Source of the DNA: an uncultured Pontibacter sp.
GTDB taxonomy: Bacteria > Bacteroidota > Bacteroidia > Cytophagales > Hymenobacteraceae
Direction: 5' to 3'
Assembly: GCF_947499215.1 (NCBI RefSeq)
Contig: NZ_CANMNI010000001.1
Location: 1,116,001-1,180,000 of the forward strand
DNA: 64,000 nucleotides
Shown here: piece by piece, positions 20,672-52,640 of the stretch
How the letters are laid out: the number at the start of each line of letters is the position of its first letter
Numbering within the stretch: position 1 is the stretch's first letter
The notes under the pieces: generated by a model
The model's database searches: none
Seen by the model: only the letters and a program-made list of their open reading frames with translations
Told to the model about the DNA's origin: nothing
Position numbers and translations under genes: made by a program

Positions 20672-23600
20672 ATGAGAACAACTTTACTCTGCCTTCTCCT
20701 CCTGTTTACTTCTTTTACCTTATTCGCTCAATCTGTCACAACGACGGGCCTTCTGAATCAGGCAAGAACCAACCATGAATCACAGGTGCTACCGGATGGC
20801 AGCGTGCTGGTGTTTGGAGGGAATGACTACTGGATTTCCAATTTGCAAAGGCTTTCCTCCGCTGAGCGTTACAACCCAAGCTCTAAAACATGGACTAGCA
20901 CAGGCAGCATGAGCCAAGCGCGGGATTTTCTATCTTCTGTCTTGCTTAACGACGGGACCGTACTCGCCATTGGTGGCACGAACCAAGCAGAGGAGGTACT
21001 TGCCACAACGGAGCGTTACCTTCCTGCCACCGGCACATGGCAAAGCACAGGCAGTATGCTCAGACCAAGAGCACAGCATGATGCCGTCAAGCTACATGAC
21101 GGCAAAGTACTCGTAGCCGGCGGTACAGCAGGCACTTCTTCAGAAATCTATAATCCGCTCGACAACACGTGGTCCAACACAGGGGGCATGCAAGTGGAGC
21201 ATGGCGCGGGCATGCAGCTGATCTTGCTCAACAACGGCAAAGTGCTGGCGACTGGCGGACAACTCGCTCCTTACAAAGCCGAGATGTTCGATCCCGTCAC
21301 ACAGCAATGGACTTTGCTAACATATGGTACACAGCGCAAGCGTGAAGGCCACGCCGTGGTAAAGTTAAAGTCTGGCGATATTCTGATTGCCGGTACGCAG
21401 TCTTGGGGAGGCAATGATCAGCAGACTGCTGAGATTTTCAATCCTGCCTCACAGACTTTCTATAGTGTTCCTAACCCACTTTACTCCTTGGGAGGGGCGC
21501 GTGCCACCCTGCTCGACGATGGCCGCGTCCTGTTTTACAGCGTGGGCGATCTGTTCAACCCGACCAATACGAAATGCATTCAACTCTACAATCCCAGTAC
21601 CCGGGTATGGACCACGCAAACGTACAATTTCATAGGGGCCAGTCTAGCTTCCGTACATTTGCTACAGGATGGCAACGTGCTGGTTGCCGGTGGTGCTTGG
21701 ACTACCGGAAACGGAGCCTCCAACTCCAGTTTACTTATCAAGCAGGATGTTTATACCGCGTGCACACCACCCAATACGCAACTGGCCCTGCAAGGCAGCA
21801 GCACCTGCAACGGGTACGGCGGCAACATCTCATTTCCCACTTCTGAGGCGGGTGTAAGTTACGAAGCCTATATTGGAGAACAGAAAGTGAGCGATACCTA
21901 CACCGGCGGAGGCCCCTTGAGCATGGCCATACCGCAGGATAAGCTCGCCCCCGGTCAGAATTTAATCAAAGTCAAAGCGATCAAAACAGGTTGTCCTGCT
22001 TACACCTTGGCCAATACGGCCAAGGTGCAAGTGCAGGCATCCAATCTACCCAAACCGATTATTGAGGCGGAGGGCCCTACTGCATTCTGCGCCGGCGGCA
22101 CCGTGGTGTTAACCGGACCGGCTGGCATGGTGGGCTACGAGTGGAGTAATGGCTCCACCACCCAAAAGATAACCGTGACCTCTTCCGGCTTTTACCGCCT
22201 GCGTGTGAAAGATGAGGCGGGTTGTTTTACGGACTACTCCAATGCGATTGAGGTCATTGCCCCTCCCACCAAATTGCAGGCTGGCGCTTACGAATCGGTG
22301 TGCATTGACAGGGCGCCCTATACCTTGGCAGGTTTTTCACCGGCGGGAGGCACTTGGTCTGGCAATGGCGTGCGCCCTGATGGCACTTTCAACCCGGCCG
22401 AGGCAGGCGCTGGTGACCATGAGCTGACCTACTCGTTCTGCGGCATATCAGCCAGCAAAACCGTATCCGTGACGGCGCTGCCCAAAGTCAGTGACTTCGC
22501 CATTACGCCCGGACAAAGCAGCCTCTGCTACGATGAAAGCACTTACATAGAAATAACCGGTGCCACACAGGGCGCCAAGTATGAAGTTTGGAATGGTGAC
22601 AGGCTGTTGACAACTGTGCAAGCAGCCTATAACAGCAGCTATATCAGAACCTCCTATTACAGTATCCGAAACAGCTCGACCATTACCGTGAAAGGTATAC
22701 TCACAAACTGGTGCGGCGCTGACACGCTGGTACAGGAGCTCAAACTGCATTTCCGCGCCGATCCCCGATTGACTGTTGAGACCACCACGCCTTCTCTGTG
22801 TAGAAAGGGAGAAGGGTCGATTTTTGTGCGAAACACGCAGGAAGACGTTTCTTATCAACTCATGAACGGAAACGTTGCGGTTGGGGAACCACAGCAGGGC
22901 AATGGCGGAACCCTGCACTTCCTGACTGGTCCGCTGCTCGAAACAACCACGTTCACGGTGAAAGGCACTTGGAACTATTACTGCGCGAAAGACATGCTGC
23001 AGACCGTGACCATGGAGGTGGCAGGCCCGCTTTCGCATTTCACGCTAAGCAACTACAATCCGGAAATTGGCGAAGCCATACAGCTCCTGAACTCTTCTGT
23101 AAACACCGGCGGCACCTACAAATGGCTGGCCGAAGGCGGTGGCTCTTGGAAAACCTCAACAGCACAGCACCCACCCCAACTCAGCTTTGACAGAAAGGGG
23201 CCTACGACTGTAAAACTGATTTCCTTTGGCACAGAAGGTTGTATCGACACCATGTCGGTCAACTTGCAGGTGATTGATCAAGTAAACCCGACTGAAGTAA
23301 CTTATTCCGTTACCTCCACTTACGATAAAAATGCACAGGCACAAAGTTTAACCTACGATGCTGCCGGAAATAGCTTCCTACTGTTTAAAGGCCTTTATGA
23401 CTACTATAATTACAGCGCTAAAGGAGACAGTATGCATTTAGTTTTTGATGACACTGAAAACGAAAACTACGAATACAAGCACACCATACTGAAGTATAAC
23501 CCGAAGGGCACCGTGCAATGGGCGGCATACCTGAGGCATCGCGACAATTGGTCACACGAAGGGGATATCACCACAGATGCGCAAGGCAATGTATATGTCG

Positions 23601-26020
23601 CCTATTTCCATGAACAGTATTTAGGGGATGTGCGTGTGTATTCTACAGACGGCAAGTATGTCACCATCAAACCTCCCTATACTAGCCATGGACACTACTC
23701 TGTTATCATTCTTAAATTCGACAAGCACGGCAGATTCCAGTGGCATAACACTTTCTTATCGCAGTACACGATAAACAAAGTGGCGCTTGTGGTGGATAGA
23801 GCAAACAACGTGTATGCCAGCAGCGATAACACGCTCTACAAATTTGATGCGAATGGCCAGTATGTATGGCACAGGGATGTTGGCTACGCCGATCTGAAGC
23901 TCGACGCGACTGACAAACTCTGGGGTGTCAGGGCAGAGACGCTGGTGGTAGACCTCTACAGCGCCAACGGCGAGCTGTTGCTCAGCTCGGAAGTGCCAGT
24001 TCAAGTCGGTGAGCATAGGCTGATCATTACCCCGATGTTTTTGAACATTGACGCAAAAGGTGACCTGTACGTATCGGGCAAATTTCTGGGGGAATTCCGC
24101 TTCGGCAGTGACAAGGTATCGGATATATATCTCTATGGCAGTTTGCACGAGGACTTATTCATTAGCAAATTTGGCAAGAGCGGCTCCCAACAATGGTTGA
24201 AACAGCTGAAGGTGGATAAAGCGACCTTACTCAAAGGCATGGACCTGCGGGATGACAAAATCATCTTTTTGGGAGGCGCTTTTGATACAAACCTGCAATA
24301 CAATTACATACCGGGAAGCGGATACAATGACTTCCTTAAAATTGACTATGGGAGCTTCTTAGGCACCGTGGACACGACATCCACCAGCGACATGCGTCTG
24401 GTGCAGATCACCGAAGGAGCTCTTCCCACACTTACAGTTCCTGACCGCCTCATCGCCTTTTCCAAAACCTCGGACAGAGTTCTGTTTAATGTCCCCAAAG
24501 GCGATGCGGGCGTACTTGGGAAACCTATCTCAACAAGAGCTGTCAGCGAAGGTCAATCGGATTTGGTGCATTTCAGCACTACGTATAGCGCCATTTTTCC
24601 ACCTGTTCCGCCTAGCTCTAAGTTTTCGGTGAGCGGATCGCGCTGTGTTGGATCGACGGTCACATTCAAGGACCTGTCTGGCGGAAAACCAACTGCTTGG
24701 AACTGGACAGTTACCGGACCTTCAAATGCTAGTTCTACCCAGCAGCACCCGACATTTACCTTTAGCCAAGCTGGCGTTTATACCGTCACCTTGGTTGCCT
24801 CCAATGCCAACGGAACAGGCAACACTTTTAAGCAGGAAATCGTGATCAGCGACTTTCCGGTCGTGACAATTACACCGGCGAGCGTTTGCGAAGGGCAAAG
24901 TATTACATTAACCGCAAGTGGAGCGGAGCAATACAGATGGGGAAGCGGGCAAACCGGGGCAAGCCTCACGATCTCCCGTGTAACCACTGACACTTTGATA
25001 AGCGTAGTTGGCATCTCCAGCACAGGTTGTGAAACTACGGTTTCACACCAAATCAAGGTGAACCCATTGCCGCAAGCCAAAATCCTTTCAGGTATAGCAC
25101 CCCTTTGCCGAGACGCCGAAGCTGTAGACTTACCGGAAGCCACACCGGCCGGGGGCAACTACAGCGGCCCGGGTTTGCTAAACGGAAAGTTTGATCCCGC
25201 CTTGGCACAGATCGGTCTGAACACTTTAACCTATACCTATACCTCTCCCAGTGGCTGCACAAGCACGGCTACCATAGAGGTGATGGTACAGGGCATCCCG
25301 CAAGTCAGCTTCTCTCCTATGGGTAAGCTTTGCAGCAGCGCCGCCGCTATTGCCTTAACAGGCGGTTCTCCCGCAGGCGGTGTATATAGCGGTACGGGTG
25401 TAAAAGACGATTTTTTCAACCCTGCCTTAAGCGGCGTGGGTGTTTTCGAGATCACCTATACCTACACCGATCCAAATGGCTGCACCGCTTCTGCCACTGC
25501 GGCTATAGAAGTAGTGGCCTTGCCTCAAGTTACCTTCGGGCCTCTTGCATCGATCTGCAAAAGTCAAGGTCCTCTTACCTTGACCGGAGGCTATCCGGAA
25601 GGCGGGGAATATACAGGTCCCGGTGTTTTAAACGGGGTGTTCATACCTGACACCACAGGTGTGGGTGTATTCCCTGTAACGTATACCTATACCAGCAATG
25701 GCTGCACCAATTCCGTCCAGAGCCAGATAGAGGTAACCACATGCACCAGCGTTGCCGAAGAAGCCGACAAGCAACTCCTGTCCGTGTACCCGAACCCAAC
25801 TGCCGGAAGCGTTACCATTCAATCAGAATGGATAAAAACACAGTCGCTCTCGCTTGGCGTGTATAACACGGCAGGGCGCAGCATATTGCGGCAAACAATC
25901 GGACAGCAGCTGGCTGGCAGGCATGTGTTAGACTTATCAAGCTATCCGAAGGGCATGTACCATGTTCAGTTGATTGCTAAAGACGGGAAAGTGCTTCGCG
26001 GCAACGTCATCGTCAATTAG
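20672..26020 (+). CDS. giant secreted Kelch/PKD protein with type IX secretion sorting domain
   Basis: The 1782-residue protein begins with a clear signal peptide (MRTTLLCLLLLFTSFTLFAQ). Residues of about 30-355 form Kelch-type blades with recurring LxDGxVLVxGG, YNPxxxxW and GSMxxAR segments, making one beta-propeller. About 360-890 are Ig/PKD-like adhesion modules (FCAGGTVVLTGPAGMVGYEWSNG). About 905-1240 resemble a second, NHL/SBBP-like propeller (DAQGNVYVAYF, DARGDLYVSGKF-like blades). A PKD domain follows near 1318-1390 (TFKDLSGGKPTAWNW), then three tandem repeats of about 80 residues with the pattern PxGGxYxGxGVxxxxFxPxxxGVxxxTYTYT. The last 75 residues (VYPNPTAGSV...GMYHVQLIAKDGK) are a type A T9SS C-terminal domain, so the protein should be secreted or surface-attached. 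The ligand is unknown. Confidence 0.9.
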   Translation: MRTTLLCLLLLFTSFTLFAQSVTTTGLLNQARTNHESQVLPDGSVLVFGGNDYWISNLQRLSSAERYNPSSKTWTSTGSMSQARDFLSSVLLNDGTVLAIGGTNQAEEVLATTERYLPATGTWQSTGSMLRPRAQHDAVKLHDGKVLVAGGTAGTSSEIYNPLDNTWSNTGGMQVEHGAGMQLILLNNGKVLATGGQLAPYKAEMFDPVTQQWTLLTYGTQRKREGHAVVKLKSGDILIAGTQSWGGNDQQTAEIFNPASQTFYSVPNPLYSLGGARATLLDDGRVLFYSVGDLFNPTNTKCIQLYNPSTRVWTTQTYNFIGASLASVHLLQDGNVLVAGGAWTTGNGASNSSLLIKQDVYTACTPPNTQLALQGSSTCNGYGGNISFPTSEAGVSYEAYIGEQKVSDTYTGGGPLSMAIPQDKLAPGQNLIKVKAIKTGCPAYTLANTAKVQVQASNLPKPIIEAEGPTAFCAGGTVVLTGPAGMVGYEWSNGSTTQKITVTSSGFYRLRVKDEAGCFTDYSNAIEVIAPPTKLQAGAYESVCIDRAPYTLAGFSPAGGTWSGNGVRPDGTFNPAEAGAGDHELTYSFCGISASKTVSVTALPKVSDFAITPGQSSLCYDESTYIEITGATQGAKYEVWNGDRLLTTVQAAYNSSYIRTSYYSIRNSSTITVKGILTNWCGADTLVQELKLHFRADPRLTVETTTPSLCRKGEGSIFVRNTQEDVSYQLMNGNVAVGEPQQGNGGTLHFLTGPLLETTTFTVKGTWNYYCAKDMLQTVTMEVAGPLSHFTLSNYNPEIGEAIQLLNSSVNTGGTYKWLAEGGGSWKTSTAQHPPQLSFDRKGPTTVKLISFGTEGCIDTMSVNLQVIDQVNPTEVTYSVTSTYDKNAQAQSLTYDAAGNSFLLFKGLYDYYNYSAKGDSMHLVFDDTENENYEYKHTILKYNPKGTVQWAAYLRHRDNWSHEGDITTDAQGNVYVAYFHEQYLGDVRVYSTDGKYVTIKPPYTSHGHYSVIILKFDKHGRFQWHNTFLSQYTINKVALVVDRANNVYASSDNTLYKFDANGQYVWHRDVGYADLKLDATDKLWGVRAETLVVDLYSANGELLLSSEVPVQVGEHRLIITPMFLNIDAKGDLYVSGKFLGEFRFGSDKVSDIYLYGSLHEDLFISKFGKSGSQQWLKQLKVDKATLLKGMDLRDDKIIFLGGAFDTNLQYNYIPGSGYNDFLKIDYGSFLGTVDTTSTSDMRLVQITEGALPTLTVPDRLIAFSKTSDRVLFNVPKGDAGVLGKPISTRAVSEGQSDLVHFSTTYSAIFPPVPPSSKFSVSGSRCVGSTVTFKDLSGGKPTAWNWTVTGPSNASSTQQHPTFTFSQAGVYTVTLVASNANGTGNTFKQEIVISDFPVVTITPASVCEGQSITLTASGAEQYRWGSGQTGASLTISRVTTDTLISVVGISSTGCETTVSHQIKVNPLPQAKILSGIAPLCRDAEAVDLPEATPAGGNYSGPGLLNGKFDPALAQIGLNTLTYTYTSPSGCTSTATIEVMVQGIPQVSFSPMGKLCSSAAAIALTGGSPAGGVYSGTGVKDDFFNPALSGVGVFEITYTYTDPNGCTASATAAIEVVALPQVTFGPLASICKSQGPLTLTGGYPEGGEYTGPGVLNGVFIPDTTGVGVFPVTYTYTSNGCTNSVQSQIEVTTCTSVAEEADKQLLSVYPNPTAGSVTIQSEWIKTQSLSLGVYNTAGRSILRQTIGQQLAGRHVLDLSSYPKGMYHVQLIAKDGKVLRGNVIVN

Positions 26021-26171: not shown

Positions 26172-26203
26172 TTTGCTCTTCTCAATCGTTAATCGTAATA
26201 TTG
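26172..26203 (+). promoter_or_regulatory. promoter of the arsenic operon
   Basis: TTTG at 26172 and TAATATTG at 26196 (one mismatch to TAnnTTTG) are separated by 20 bp, the expected -33/-7 spacing in Bacteroidota. The box overlaps an inverted repeat. Confidence 0.45.
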
Positions 26204-26217
26204 CAATCAAACGATTA
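26190..26217. promoter_or_regulatory. putative ArsR operator
   Basis: TAATCGT and ACGATTA form a perfect 7-bp inverted repeat with a 14-bp spacer, covering the -7 region and ending 5 bp before the regulator's ATG. This is the position expected for autorepression by an ArsR protein relieved by arsenite. Confidence 0.5.
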
Positions 26218-26222
26218 GAGAG

Positions 26223-26555
26223 ATGGGACTGACCAAAACCGAGTTTTTTACAGAGAGCCAAAACAAGACCGCCATGTTGCTGAAGGCATTGGGTCATCCG
26301 GCTCGGGTGGCAATTGTTGAGCACTTGCTCAAGGTGAAAACCTGCGTCTGCGGCGATATCGTGAACGAACTGCCATTGGCCCAGCCCACGGTTTCGCAGC
26401 ACCTCAAAGAGCTCAAGATCGCTGGTATCATCAAGGGCAGTGTGGAGGGCACGTCGGTTTGCTACTGCCTTGACGAAAAGGCCTTCGAGAGCCTCAGCGC
26501 CTATTTCACAAATGTGCTGACCGACCTTCAGAATCAGAATTCAACTTGTTGCTAA
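26223..26555 (+). CDS. arsR: ArsR/SmtB family arsenic-responsive repressor
   Basis: The 110-residue winged-helix protein has the ArsR layout: [16 protein letters not shown], then CVCGDIV (Cys41 and Cys43), then the recognition helix [17 protein letters not shown]. The CxC pair in the alpha3 region is the classic arsenite-sensing site (family ELCVCDL). It also ends in a Cys-Cys pair (STCC). It should repress the operon and release DNA when As(III) binds. It is the first of four genes; an inverted repeat overlaps its promoter. Confidence 0.92.
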
Positions 26556-26570
26556 CATCTTAAATATACC

Positions 26571-27050
26571 ATGATGAAACTTTCAGAAATCAAACATATA
26601 CTGCAGACTGCCGAGGCGGTGAACTTCGAACTGGAGAACGGCACGCTGGTTCCCGAGCATTTTCATGTCACCGAGGTAGGCGTGATCACCAAGCACTTTA
26701 TTGACTGCGGGGGCACGGTGCGCAACGAGAAGGTGGCCAACTTCCAGCTGTGGGACGCCAACGACTTCGATCACCGCCTGAAACCGCAGAAATTGCTTAA
26801 CATCATCGCCCTGTCTGAAAAAGCCTTGGGTATGGAAGACCTTGAAGTGGAAGTGGAGTACCAGAGCGACACCATCGGTAAGTATGACCTTGGCTTCAAC
26901 GGCCAAAACTTCGTGCTGCTGAGCAAGACGACCAACTGCCTCGCTTCAGACAAATGCGGTATACCTGCTGATAAAATTGAGAAGCCGAAAATCAATTTGA
27001 ATAACCTGATTGTGGGTAATGCCTGCACGCCGGGTGGCGGCTGCTGCTAA
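26571..27050 (+). CDS. DUF6428 family protein of arsenic operons
   Basis: The 159-residue protein (MMKLSEIKHILQTAEAVNFELENG) matches the DUF6428 family, which in Bacteroidota is typically encoded between arsR and arsenic transport genes. Its function is unknown. It has no signal peptide. Cysteines are at residue 46 (FIDCGG), in the TTNCLASDKCG segment near 124-130, and in the tail NACTPGGGCC, a pattern consistent with soft-metal or metalloid binding (inference). It starts 15 bp after arsR. A second ATG one codon later is an equally possible start. Confidence 0.8.
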   Translation: MMKLSEIKHILQTAEAVNFELENGTLVPEHFHVTEVGVITKHFIDCGGTVRNEKVANFQLWDANDFDHRLKPQKLLNIIALSEKALGMEDLEVEVEYQSDTIGKYDLGFNGQNFVLLSKTTNCLASDKCGIPADKIEKPKINLNNLIVGNACTPGGGCC

Positions 27051-27082
27051 AACCAATTTTTGAACCAACCTATAAAGACACG

Positions 27083-27859
27083 ATGAGTAAAATAGCGCTG
27101 TTCAGCGATATTCACGCCAACCTGCCTGCCTTGGAGGCCTTTTTTGCAGACGTAGACGCCCGCAAACCCGATTTTATCTACTGCCTCGGCGACTTGGTGG
27201 GGTATAACATCTGGCCAAATGAGGTGATCGATGAGATCCGGAAGCGCAACATCCCGACCATTGCCGGCAACTACGACTTCGGTATTGGGCGCGCGACGGA
27301 CGATTGCGGTTGCGCCTATAAAACAGAGGAGGAAAAGGCCAATGGCTCGGTTTCCATCTCGTTCACCAACGACATCATCAAGTCGGCGCAGCGCAGCTAC
27401 CTGCGTTCGCTGCCTGCGCACATCAAAGTCGAGTTTCAGCTCAACAACGACAATCTCAACCTCCTGCTCGTGCATGGCAGTCCGCGCAAGATAAACGAGT
27501 ACCTGTTTGAGGACCGCGACGAGAAGAGCCTGCTGCGCATTATGAAAGACGCCGACGCTGACATCTTGTGCTTTGGCCACACGCACAAGCCTTATCACCG
27601 CATATTGGATTCTGGCGAAGAGGGACAGCCGCATTTCCGTCACGCGATCAACATCGGGTCGGTGGGCAAGCCGAAAGACGCCGACAACCGGGGCGCCTAT
27701 GTTATGCTGACCATCGACGAGAACAGCTCGGTACTGGACAGGAACAGCATAGAGGTGGAGTTCATCCGCTTCGCCTACGATTTTGAGAAGGCCGCACGTG
27801 CTGTGGAGGAGTCTATTTTGCCAAACGCCTATGCAGAGAATCTTCGCAAGGGCTGCTAA
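27083..27859 (+). CDS. calcineurin-like metallophosphoesterase in the arsenic operon
   Basis: The 258-residue enzyme has the metallophosphoesterase motifs in order: FSDIHAN (Asp9, His11), GDLVGY (Asp37), GNYD (Asn63), HGSP (His131) and GHTH (His166, His168). The usual GNH(D/E) has Tyr64 instead of His, which could alter catalysis. An unusual DDCGCAYK segment (Cys75, Cys77) and a C-terminal Cys (RKGC) are present. The substrate is unknown; related enzymes cleave phosphodiesters or dinucleotide polyphosphates. It lies 32 bp after the DUF6428 gene and 11 bp before the ACR3 gene, so it is part of the arsenic operon. Confidence 0.82.
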
Positions 27860-27870
27860 CCACTATTATT

Positions 27871-28956
27871 ATGAGTGCTAACAACTGTACCCCCACCTAC
27901 CAGCGGAAAAAACTCCGGTTTTTCGACCGCTACCTTACGCTCTGGATTTTTCTGGCCATGTTTCTGGGCGTAGGCATCGGCTACTTTATACCTGAATCCT
28001 CTGGGTTTATAAACTCCTTTTCGAGCGGCACCACCAACATCCCGCTGGCCATCGGTCTGATACTGATGATGTACCCGCCACTGGCCAAGGTCAGGTATGA
28101 GAAAATGGGCGAAGTGTTCAAGAACGTGAAAATCCTGAGCATGTCGCTGTTCTTAAATTGGGTGATCGGCCCCTTCCTGATGTTCTTTCTGGCCATCCTC
28201 TTTTTCCATGACCAGCCCGAGTACATGATCGGCTTGATCCTGATAGGTATAGCCCGCTGCATTGCCATGGTGATGGTTTGGAATGAGCTCGCCGAAGGCA
28301 ACCGGGAGTATGCGGCTGGTTTGGTGGCTTTGAACAGTGTCTTCCAGATTTTCTTCTACAGCGTGTATGCCTACCTTTTCATATCGGTGCTGCCGCCGCT
28401 ATTCGGTATCCAGAGCGCTGAAATCAACATTACCATCGGGCAGATTGCGGAGAGCGTGCTTATCTACCTCGGCATACCTTTCTTTGCGGGCATCATTACA
28501 CGCTATGGGCTGATCAGCTTAAAGGGCTTGGACTGGTTCAACAACAAATACATTCCGTTCATCTCTCCTATCACGCTCATCGCACTATTGTTTACGATCG
28601 TGCTCATGTTCAGCTTGAAGGGCGAACTGATGGTCGAAATTCCGTTTGATGTGCTGCAACTGGCAGTGCCGCTGGTGTTATACTTTGCCCTGATGTTTGT
28701 AATCAGCTTTATATTGGGCAAGTTACTGGGTGCCGATTATTCCCAAAATACGGCCATTTCCTTCACGGCCACCGGCAACAATTTTGAGCTGGCTATTGCG
28801 GTTGCCATCGGCATCTATGGCATCAACAGCGGACAGGCCTTTGCCGGCGTGATCGGTCCGCTGGTGGAAGTACCGGCGCTAATCCTGCTAGTGAATGTCG
28901 CCTTCTGGTTTAAGCGGAAATGGTATAGCCGGGAGAAAGAACTGATCAACTCTTAA
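27871..28956 (+). CDS. ACR3 family arsenite efflux transporter
   Basis: This 361-residue inner-membrane carrier has ten hydrophobic helices and exports arsenite driven by the proton motive force. The essential Cys is seen as Cys130 in [16 protein letters not shown], together with the family segment [16 protein letters not shown] near residue 308 and [10 protein letters not shown] near 331. The N-terminus contains another Cys (MSANNCTP). It is the last gene of the arsR-DUF6428-phosphoesterase-ACR3 operon and is followed by a terminator. No arsenate reductase gene is in this operon. Confidence 0.95.
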
Positions 28957-28983
28957 AAGTATAGCCTATACCTACAATCACAG

Positions 28984-29020
28984 CGAGCTGCTCTTAAAAT
29001 GGGCAGCTCGTTTTGTTTTT
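28984..29020 (+). terminator. intrinsic terminator of the arsenic operon
   Basis: CGAGCTGC pairs with GCAGCTCG (extended by two more pairs), followed by TTTTGTTTTT. Confidence 0.75.
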
Positions 29021-50308: not shown

Positions 50309-51259
50309 ATGTCCAAACTTTTTCCGCTCTCCTCTCCCCTACTGCAGAAAACGATTTTTATTGCCTTTGTTCTCCTGATCTTGTTTACCCCGTTACTTAA
50401 CTCGGCTTTGGCTTTGGGAGCAGGTTTAGTGATAGGGCTTCTGCTGGGCAATCCTTTTAAAGCGCATACCGGTAAAATTTCGAAGTACCTCTTGCAGGCT
50501 GCTGTCGTTGGCTTGGGCTTTGGCATAGACCTGTACCAAGTGGCCGAAACCGGACTAATTGGCGTGGCCTATACCTTGGTGTCGCTGGCCGCTACGATGG
50601 TCATTGGTCTGTTGCTTGGCAAGTTATTCTATACCCCTCCCCGCCTCACGCACCTTGTTTCGTCGGGCACGGCCATTTGCGGGGGTAGTGCTATTGCGGC
50701 GGTGGCTCCGGCTATCAAAGCCAACGATCAGGAAATTTCGGTGGCGCTCGGTATTGTGTTTGTGCTGAACGCAGTAGCGCTTTTTATTTTTCCGCCTATC
50801 GGTAATGCACTCGGACTTTCGCAGGAACAGTTCGGCATTTGGGCAGCCATTGCCATACACGACACCAGCTCAGTAGTAGGCGCCGCCACCCGCTACGGCG
50901 ACGAAGCTTTGAAAATTGCGACCACCCTCAAACTGACCCGCGCGCTTTGGATCGTTCCGTTGGTGCTGGTCTCTAGCCTGATGTTCAAAGACGGGAAAAA
51001 GAAACTAAGCATCCCGACCTTTATTCTGCTTTTCGTGCTGGCTTCGGTGATTAGCACCTTTATACCTGCTATGGAGATTATTTCTCCGACTATCGTCATG
51101 CTGGCCAAAAAAGGACTGCTCCTCAGCCTTTTCCTCATTGGTGCCAACATTAGCCTGAGCGCTTTAAAGGCAATTAGTCCGAAGCCTTTCTGGCAGGGCG
51201 TTATCCTGTGGCTCTTTATTTCAGTGGTCTCGCTGACTGTCATCTACGGTCTGGGCTAA
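50309..51259 (+). CDS. YeiH family putative sulfate/anion exporter
   Basis: This 316-residue membrane protein belongs to the YeiH/UPF0324 family (TIGR00698). About ten helices are visible; signatures include LGFGIDLYQVAETG near residue 70, VSSGTAICGGSAIAAVAPAIKA near 118 and AAIAIHDTSSVVGAATRYGDEAL near 180. Members have been proposed to export sulfite/sulfate-type anions, but direct evidence is thin. It is preceded by its own promoter box, and 48 bp after its stop lies a catalase gene relic. Confidence 0.9.
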   Translation: MSKLFPLSSPLLQKTIFIAFVLLILFTPLLNSALALGAGLVIGLLLGNPFKAHTGKISKYLLQAAVVGLGFGIDLYQVAETGLIGVAYTLVSLAATMVIGLLLGKLFYTPPRLTHLVSSGTAICGGSAIAAVAPAIKANDQEISVALGIVFVLNAVALFIFPPIGNALGLSQEQFGIWAAIAIHDTSSVVGAATRYGDEALKIATTLKLTRALWIVPLVLVSSLMFKDGKKKLSIPTFILLFVLASVISTFIPAMEIISPTIVMLAKKGLLLSLFLIGANISLSALKAISPKPFWQGVILWLFISVVSLTVIYGLG

Positions 51260-51771: not shown

Positions 51772-51789
51772 AATACATGTTCATGTATT
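51772..51789. promoter_or_regulatory. putative ArsR-type operator
   Basis: AATACATG-TT-CATGTATT is a perfect inverted repeat 25 bp upstream of the regulator's ATG, with the size and two-base centre typical of ArsR-family operators. Confidence 0.55.
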
Positions 51790-51814
51790 GCAATTACCTA
51801 TTATTTATACCTGC

Positions 51815-52126
51815 ATGACTGACCTGAAAGTAAGGGTAGACAAAAAGAAATTGGAGAAGACAGCCTATGTGCTGAAATGCGTGGCACACCCGGTACGCAT
51901 CAGCATTATTGACCTATTGGAACAGCAAGAGCAACTTACCGTGAGTCAGCTGCAGGAAGTACTTCAAATTGAACAGTCGCTGCTCTCGCACCACCTTACC
52001 AATATGCGCGACAAGGGTATTGTAGAGACTCGTCGGCAAGGCAAGCATGTACTTTATTCACTTACCGACTCTTCCATCTCCAGCATCATTGATTGCATCA
52101 AAGGCTGTAAGCCGGTGCAACAGTAA
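51815..52126 (+). CDS. ArsR family winged-helix repressor
   Basis: From ATG 51815 the 103-residue protein has the ArsR fold: LKCVAHPVRISIIDLLEQQ, then LTVSQLQEVLQIEQSLLSHHLTNMRDKGIVETRRQGKHVLYSL, with recognition helix QSLLSHHLTNM. The cysteines (Cys22 in LKCVAHP, Cys95 and Cys99 near IIDCIKGCKP) could sense a metal or sulfur species; the CxC of arsenic sensors is absent. The tail pair resembles redox or persulfide sensors of the family (inference). A perfect inverted repeat overlaps its upstream region, and a rhodanese gene follows, so it may control sulfur-related functions. Confidence 0.88.
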   Translation: MTDLKVRVDKKKLEKTAYVLKCVAHPVRISIIDLLEQQEQLTVSQLQEVLQIEQSLLSHHLTNMRDKGIVETRRQGKHVLYSLTDSSISSIIDCIKGCKPVQQ

Positions 52127-52244: not shown

Positions 52245-52640
52245 ATGAAACTCTTCCTAATAACTTTTTTGGCAGCCGGTATGATGAGCTGCACCAGCCC
52301 GCAGCAGGGCGAAGGCAGTGTTAAAACTATATCTGCCACCGAATACAAAGAGCACCATGAAAAAATCGACAACCAAGAAGTTATGCTGGTTGATGTTCGG
52401 ACTCCTGCTGAGTTTGAAGCGGGACACCTCGAAAACACCCAGCACGCCGACTTCCTAAGCGGACAGTTTGAAAAAGAAATGCAGACTTGGGACAAGGACA
52501 AAACCTACTACCTCTACTGCGCCAGCGGCAACCGCAGCGGCAAAGCAGCCAAACAGATGGAAGAAGCCGGCTTTAAGAACGTCTACAACATCGGCGGTTA
52601 CTCAGATCTGAAAGCAGCCGGACTGCCTGTGAAGGAGTAA
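52245..52640 (+). CDS. rhodanese-like lipoprotein
   Basis: The 131-residue protein has a lipoprotein signal with lipobox MMSC (Cys16) and a single rhodanese domain. Features are VMLVDVRTPAEFEAGHLENTQHADF near residue 46, and the active-site loop YCASGNRSGKAA with catalytic Cys92. Rhodaneses transfer sulfane sulfur; the lipid anchor places it in the envelope. It lies 118 bp after the ArsR-family regulator, so the two may be functionally linked, for example in sulfide or persulfide handling (inference). Confidence 0.9.
   Translation: MKLFLITFLAAGMMSCTSPQQGEGSVKTISATEYKEHHEKIDNQEVMLVDVRTPAEFEAGHLENTQHADFLSGQFEKEMQTWDKDKTYYLYCASGNRSGKAAKQMEEAGFKNVYNIGGYSDLKAAGLPVKE

Follow-up and report, generated by a model that had tools for sequence, protein, structure and literature searches.

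In a 64,000-nucleotide stretch of the genome of an uncultured Pontibacter sp. (contig NZ_CANMNI010000001.1, positions 1,116,001 to 1,180,000; hereafter the window, with coordinates counted from its first letter), an arsenic resistance (ars) operon encodes an ArsR repressor and a protein of the uncharacterised family DUF6428 that both end in two adjacent cysteines (CC), and comparable endings recur on unrelated proteins of other ars loci. The resulting C-terminal thiol arm is conserved and almost restricted to arsenic-handling families; it is appended past the core of ArsM, and on DUF6428 it persists while the surrounding residues diverge. It may represent a portable element for the capture or hand-over of trivalent arsenic, DUF6428 being an ArsD-like carrier, an explanation that we hold with moderate confidence. 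Terminal cysteine pairs are already known in ArsD; a tail common to ars proteins was not described in the titles and abstract openings of the open-access literature searched, and no paper on DUF6428 was found in the open-access literature.

The operon, delineated from the open reading frames (ORFs) of the window and profile searches, lies on the forward strand in the order arsR-DUF6428-phosphoesterase-acr3. The arsR gene (26223..26555, +; PF01022) encodes a protein with cysteines at positions 41, 43, 80, 82, 109 and 110, the last two (codons 26547-26552, +) closing the protein end NSTCC. The DUF6428 gene (26571..27050, +), whose product is the proposed As(III) carrier, matches profile positions 1-155 of 155 of PF20001 at 221.1 bits against a cut-off of 28.7 and has cysteines 46, 123, 129, 152, 158 and 159, of which the last three form the three-thiol tail CTPGGGCC (codons 27024-27047, +). 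All of the cysteines named in an earlier note on this DNA are present, namely STCC on ArsR, GGGCC and CLASDKC on DUF6428, DCGC and RKGC on the phosphoesterase and MSANNC on ACR3.

The conservation of the arm is most pronounced in DUF6428. PF20001 was present in 96 of the 395 Bacteroidota genomes sampled and in 0 of 14 control genomes, and in the 100 places chosen by family, for which flanks were fetched, the protein ends in CC without exception (100/100). In the same loci, the 94 distinct ArsRs found in an ars context comprise 84 with a CC end, 3 scored as near, 6 with one cysteine and 1 with none (length filter 75-190 amino acids (aa) for context and control counts). Because the background frequency is only 5 in 1866 ORFs (at least 120 aa, outside annotated families, possibly including unreal ones), both families lie far beyond chance. 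ORF calling relied on a simple script that took the first ATG where reasonable and read alternative starts as M, so that some starts are wrong; stop codons define the ends. Family labels were assigned by phmmer against a few seed proteins, those of most families having been checked by Pfam or NCBIfam.

Cys46, Cys123, Cys158 and Cys159 are invariant in the DUF6428 alignment (97 of 136 nonredundant rows, mixing family- and tail-chosen loci), and in 98 of 114 family-selected, CC-ending DUF6428 proteins a third cysteine precedes the pair by no more than 8 residues, usually by 4 or 5. In divergent members whose profile match stops short of the tail, the CC end is still there. In the verrucomicrobial phylum, DUF6428 bears the pair in 12 of 13 places, or in 11 of 12 if the centre genome, itself recovered by its tail, is left out, and the linkers there are quite different. 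In an AlphaFold2 model of DUF6428 the alpha/beta body is predicted with confidence (mean pLDDT 89.8) and the end less surely (pLDDT 66-71 over the final three ten-residue blocks). No solved structure was related to it by sequence at E values up to 1 and no fold relative was matched by Foldseek at E up to 0.001; among 999 chains ranked by Foldseek the best Z was 2.7, and this lack of a clear relative does not show a new fold. That DUF6428 might be an ArsD homolog by sequence was considered and rejected, as only PF20001 and a sub-threshold DUF6252, and no PF06953, were matched at E up to 1.

On ArsR, the terminal pair is associated with an arsenic context. In 79 of 100 loci an ArsR gene ends no more than 150 bp before DUF6428 on the upstream side, and in 9 more no more than 1500 bp before it; a tailed product adjoins an ArsR terminal pair in 85 of 100. 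Among the 89 ArsR rows adjoining DUF6428 (95-190 aa), C41 is found in 89, C43 in 82, C80 in 81, C82 in 89, C109 in 86 and C110 in 87, with a CC end in 82. A PF01022 control search covered 61 genomes, with 70 loci used. Of its distinct ArsR/SmtB proteins, 49 have no ars gene visible within 2.5 kb; none of these has a CC end and a single one has a cysteine in the last five residues, in a set where an ars gene could have been missed because 30 of the 70 loci hold only about 1.5 kb per side. In the 40 longer loci, none of the 23 ArsRs lacking an ars gene has any cysteine in the last five residues, and the 14 with an ars gene comprise 4 CC, 4 near, 5 with one cysteine and 1 with none. All 16 ArsRs in an ars context from the PF01022-selected loci include 4 with CC and 4 with two cysteines in the last five residues.

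The window ArsR appears to be of the ArArsR type. ArArsR, an As(III)/MAs(III)-responsive repressor from Arsenicibacter rosenii SM-1, is reported to have cysteines 41, 43, 80, 82, 107 and 108 (PMC11868830), and the two proteins share Cys41, Cys43, Cys80, Cys82, a terminal pair, an operator core and a place in a Bacteroidota ars operon. This likeness in sequence does not extend to the operon, which is arsRMC for ArArsR, whereas the window ArsR is followed by DUF6428, the phosphoesterase and ACR3. According to the published work, the As(III) site of ArArsR consists of Cys41, Cys80 and Cys82, single mutants of Cys43, Cys107 and Cys108 kept the response, and ArsR As(III) sites use three cysteines while MAs(III) needs two (PMC11868830); Cys41, Cys80 and Cys82 are all present in the window protein. 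A probable operator upstream of the window ArsR (26192..26207, +) matches with 0 mismatches the 16-base core ATCGTAATATTGCRAT of the published ArArsR footprint. With at most 1 mismatch allowed, 81 of the 99 ArsR ORFs in DUF6428 loci have this core in the 120 bp that precede them, compared with 3 of 651 control ORFs.

Beyond these two families, the pattern C-x-P-G-x-G-C-C-stop gave 93 matches in 83 of the 395 genomes, against 6 for a reversed control. By family, these comprise DUF6428 (52, one of which, G138 C8, was assigned by position only), ArsM (23), ArsD (10), an FmdB-type zinc ribbon (2) and places with no ORF (6), so that 87 of 93 are the end of DUF6428, ArsM, ArsD or an arsA-linked zinc ribbon. 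A wider contig scan gave at least 80 loci, of which at least 70 contain an ORF bearing the tail; this ORF was DUF6428 in at least 50, ArsM in at least 13, ArsI in at least 3, ArsD in at least 2 and a DsbA-like protein in at least 2. At least 5 of these DUF6428 matches came from records with the titles Verrucomicrobiia, Opitutaceae, Opitutus or Chthoniobacteraceae. Because loci L162-L278 were picked for their tail, those tails do not enter the unbiased counts.

When selection went by family, the 30 best-scoring rather than random ArsM proteins comprised 23 CC and 3 near, the 30 best-scoring ArsD proteins 24 CC and 6 near, and the 11 ArsI proteins 5 CC and 2 near. A third cysteine at the same distance from the pair as in DUF6428 (8 residues or fewer, usually 4 or 5) is found in 37 of 39 ArsM and 24 of 24 ArsD proteins that were selected by family and end in CC, in 0 of 5 for ArsI and in only 5 of 114 for ArsR, whose end is usually the cysteine pair alone. 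Given these counts, three thiols appear on the likely As(III) carriers and converters and two on the repressor. On ArsM, the tail extends beyond the core, and some members lack it; in the phylum of a Marinobacter-titled record, 28 ArsM proteins comprise 13 CC, 4 near, 4 with one cysteine and 7 with none. The Pontibacter genome itself encodes, outside the window, an ArsM ending in CVPGGGCC (L169:5182-6027, about 511.5-512.4 kb of contig C1; also L405). L121, L124, L125 and L127 are the four DUF6428-selected loci in which ArsM bears the C-x-P-G tail, and DUF6428 has only CC there; the full tail was seen on both in none of the DUF6428-selected loci, a weak observation, as 5 loci hold both genes.

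The two zinc ribbons (L195:4812-5027 and L196:4809-5027) are FmdB-type proteins of 71-72 aa that end in CTPG[G/S]GCC. In both loci the gene stands 3' of one for an ArsA-type ATPase (confirmed by Pfam for L195) and immediately precedes an ArsC-like ORF, which makes the ribbon a possible unrecognised ars protein. Locus L196 has the order arsR-(arsM-arsD)-arsA-zinc ribbon-arsC, and the tail sits on the zinc ribbon. Its second gene (L196:1743-2933, 396 aa) encodes an ArsM-ArsD fusion, with Pfam matches to a methyltransferase at residues 91-231 and to ArsD at 296-394. Long open frames around the ArsD matches in genomes G199 and G231 may be further fusions.

Other products of the whole locus set are devoid of the CC end: ACR3 (0/106), phosphoesterase (0/29), ArsA (0/14), GNAT (0/52), an ArsC-like protein of about 200 aa (0/87; a distant, sub-threshold match to arsenate reductases) and one of about 140 aa (0/71; matching LMWPc). 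The five CC-ending background ORFs are three membrane proteins in DUF6428 loci, an ArsP-type permease and an ArsR-family ORF beside ArsI. The three predicted membrane proteins, 187-192 aa long (L065:10622-11185, L114:6410-6985 and L274:3850-4428), have no Pfam match over the cut-off, and in L065 the gene is followed by that of a SigZ-like sigma factor ending in KKSCSGGKC. The ArsP_1-type permease (L321:251-1330, end KHDCC) is the sole CC-ending product that matches a known membrane exporter family; the ArsR near it lacks the terminal pair, and the ars genes considered as context did not include ArsP.

The last two genes of the window operon differ from ArsR and DUF6428. The phosphoesterase (27083..27859, +) is calcineurin-like by its sequence matches to PF12850 (69.1 bits against a cut-off of 27) and PF00149, and has cysteines 34, 75, 77, 163 and 258, a DCGC motif and the end RKGC. 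The motif occurs in 15 of 27 aligned homologs (200-280 aa, 27 of 29), and the terminal cysteine in only 2, the window protein and that of Pontibacter locus L249. ACR3, the arsenite exporter (27871..28956, +; TIGR00832 at 447.7 bits against a cut-off of 282.8), has Cys6, within the N-terminal MSANNCTP (27871-27894, +), and Cys130. Cys130 is present in all 102 homologs compared (310-380 aa, 102 of 106), and a cysteine within the first 10 residues in 31, mostly in an MSANNCxP-like start, which makes the window start a minority type. The C-x-P of the recurrent start MSANNC(A/T)P recalls the tail motif.

Consequently, the statement of the earlier note that every product of the operon has terminal or exposed cysteines describes this genome and, given the counts of 2 in 27 and 31 in 102, is not a rule beyond ArsR and DUF6428; terminal cysteines are lost in most homologs of the phosphoesterase and ACR3 and clearly are not in those of ArsR and DUF6428. 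Of the thiol relay that it proposed from sensor to pump, an arsenic-tied thiol function is strongly suggested by the sequences of ArsR and DUF6428, whereas the route through the phosphoesterase and ACR3 is unsupported, and the four-protein relay is rejected on these counts and the absence of CC from ACR3. The thiol function seems broader than was then supposed, because ArsM, ArsD and some ArsI proteins bear the same kind of tail. The interpretation given in the note is partly supported and is better recast as a terminal thiol arm common to soluble arsenic-handling proteins.

In the mechanism that we propose, soluble proteins that handle trivalent arsenic bear a short C-terminal thiol arm, whose usual form on DUF6428, ArsM and ArsD (Cys, 4-5 residues, Cys-Cys) could in principle suffice for three-coordinate As(III). 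The arm would capture As(III) or methyl-As(III), which thiol exchange might then pass to partner proteins or to an inner site of the protein itself, a site that in DUF6428 could be formed by the invariant Cys46 and Cys123. As a soluble carrier, DUF6428 would thereby reduce the free arsenite and supply the exporter ACR3, and the terminal pair of ArsR would have a role in exchange or resetting rather than in sensing. Although not an ArsD member by sequence, and with no ArsD domain in a Pfam scan, DUF6428 may work like ArsD. It resembles the R773 ArsD metallochaperone in being a small soluble ars-operon protein that ends in cysteine, R773 ArsD having C-terminal vicinal pairs, and it usually follows arsR, which is also the place reported for arsD in arsRDABC (PMC4562236). 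A further lead for hand-off, by analogy, may be the Thermus thermophilus pair TtSmtB-TtArsM, in which an ArsR/SmtB regulator is reported to bind ArsM in a complex weakened by arsenite (PMC8649762). The ArsM-ArsD fusion of L196 is another lead, as carrier-enzyme hand-off would predict such a fusion, and is a single case.

A more far-reaching version, which we regard as possible but tentative, would make the arm a common exchange port repeatedly gained by arsenic-handling proteins across phyla. Arsenite would then pass from the two-thiol end of ArsR to proteins with three-thiol ends (DUF6428, ArsD and ArsM) in a network of soluble hand-offs, whose carrier in many Bacteroidota would be DUF6428 instead of ArsD. 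ArsD and DUF6428 are seldom found together, as only 2 of 42 ArsD genomes (G123 and G211) have DUF6428, a scarcity that may reflect kinship because most of the ArsD genomes come from one family.

Several observations weigh against capture and hand-off by the arm. The proposed recipient ACR3 mostly lacks an N-terminal cysteine (71 of 102), and the tail is absent from 4 of 30 family-selected ArsM and 4 of 11 ArsI proteins; among the 16 PF01022-selected ArsRs in an ars context, 5 have one cysteine in the last five residues and 3 have none. In the Pontibacter genome itself, the second ars locus (L169) has an ArsR ending in SKCG, and ArsI (L427) is untailed. The zinc ribbon bears the tail in only 2 loci, and the L196 fusion protein lacks a terminal cysteine. 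Two DsbA-like proteins (L218:2220-2903, Pfam checked, and L266:6855-7538, from records titled Chryseobacterium gleum) bear the tail C-x-P-G-G-G-C-C with no ars gene seen nearby. From known systems, the C-terminal pairs of R773 ArsD are reported to be tied to regulation, and chaperone activity to its N-terminal cysteines (PMC4562236), an assignment that argues against a role purely in transfer, and TtArsM is described as having a single cysteine (PMC8649762), so that the TtSmtB-TtArsM contact does not rest on a terminal cysteine pair.

The strongest alternative, which we consider rather unlikely, is that the tail acts as a local trap, only buffering As(III) or concentrating it locally for the protein that bears the tail (the active site of ArsM or a pocket of DUF6428) and exchanging it with no other. 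Such a trap fits the conservation equally well, and a three-thiol form could hold arsenic without partners; it leaves unexplained why ArsR has a terminal pair whose cysteines are, in the report on ArArsR, singly dispensable for sensing (PMC11868830), and why that pair stands beside a tailed product in 85 of 100 DUF6428 loci.

Vicinal cysteines can form disulfides, and the arm could accordingly serve as a redox or turnover switch, in which the thiols form a disulfide or mark the protein so as to report thiol stress or set stability, with arsenic involved only indirectly. The tailed DsbA-like proteins agree with this proposal, which is nevertheless distinctly improbable, as a general redox tag would not predict the near absence of CC from the background (5 of 1866) and from the 49 control ArsR/SmtB proteins. 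Common descent or operon hitch-hiking, by which tails would be passengers of a few related operons with no selected function, draws on the prevalence of Bacteroidota among the loci, the relatedness of their operons and the clustering of the tail label in a quick ArsM tree (71 rows; at least 6 changes against about 19 for shuffled labels, counts that are rough because rows were truncated to 300 residues and tail columns were not removed manually), and is already disfavoured and very improbable, since unrelated families bear the pair, as do proteins in other phyla whose linkers differ, six other product types of the same loci have it in 0/14 to 0/106, and that rough tree still requires 6 changes or more, of which starred branches force 2.

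Around the operon, a terminator-like hairpin of 12 pairs followed by a T-rich stretch lies 3' of ACR3 (28982..29012, +), as weak evidence only, because the 4 terminator-like sites in the region do not exceed shuffled sequences (mean 3.5); promoter-like sites likewise show no excess (3 against 2.9 in shuffles). Directly 5' of the operon, positions 20672-26020 encode a 1782-aa protein with a signal-like start and repeated modules. Elsewhere in the window, an ArsR-family regulator without terminal cysteines (51788-52126) has as neighbours, by labels read from sequence, a membrane protein with multiple hydrophobic segments (50309-51259) and a rhodanese-like lipoprotein (52245-52640).

The arm gives a testable role to an uncharacterised family present in 96 of 395 sampled Bacteroidota genomes, and it turns a scattered fact, that ArsD ends in cysteine pairs, into a pattern across unrelated proteins. 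It also raises the question of why a terminal pair is retained on the repressor when neither of the two cysteines is individually required for sensing. Should the arm indeed bind and transfer arsenic, the tail could flag unrecognised arsenic proteins, such as the zinc ribbon, the DsbA-like proteins and the 187-192 aa membrane protein, and could serve as a portable arsenic-binding tag.

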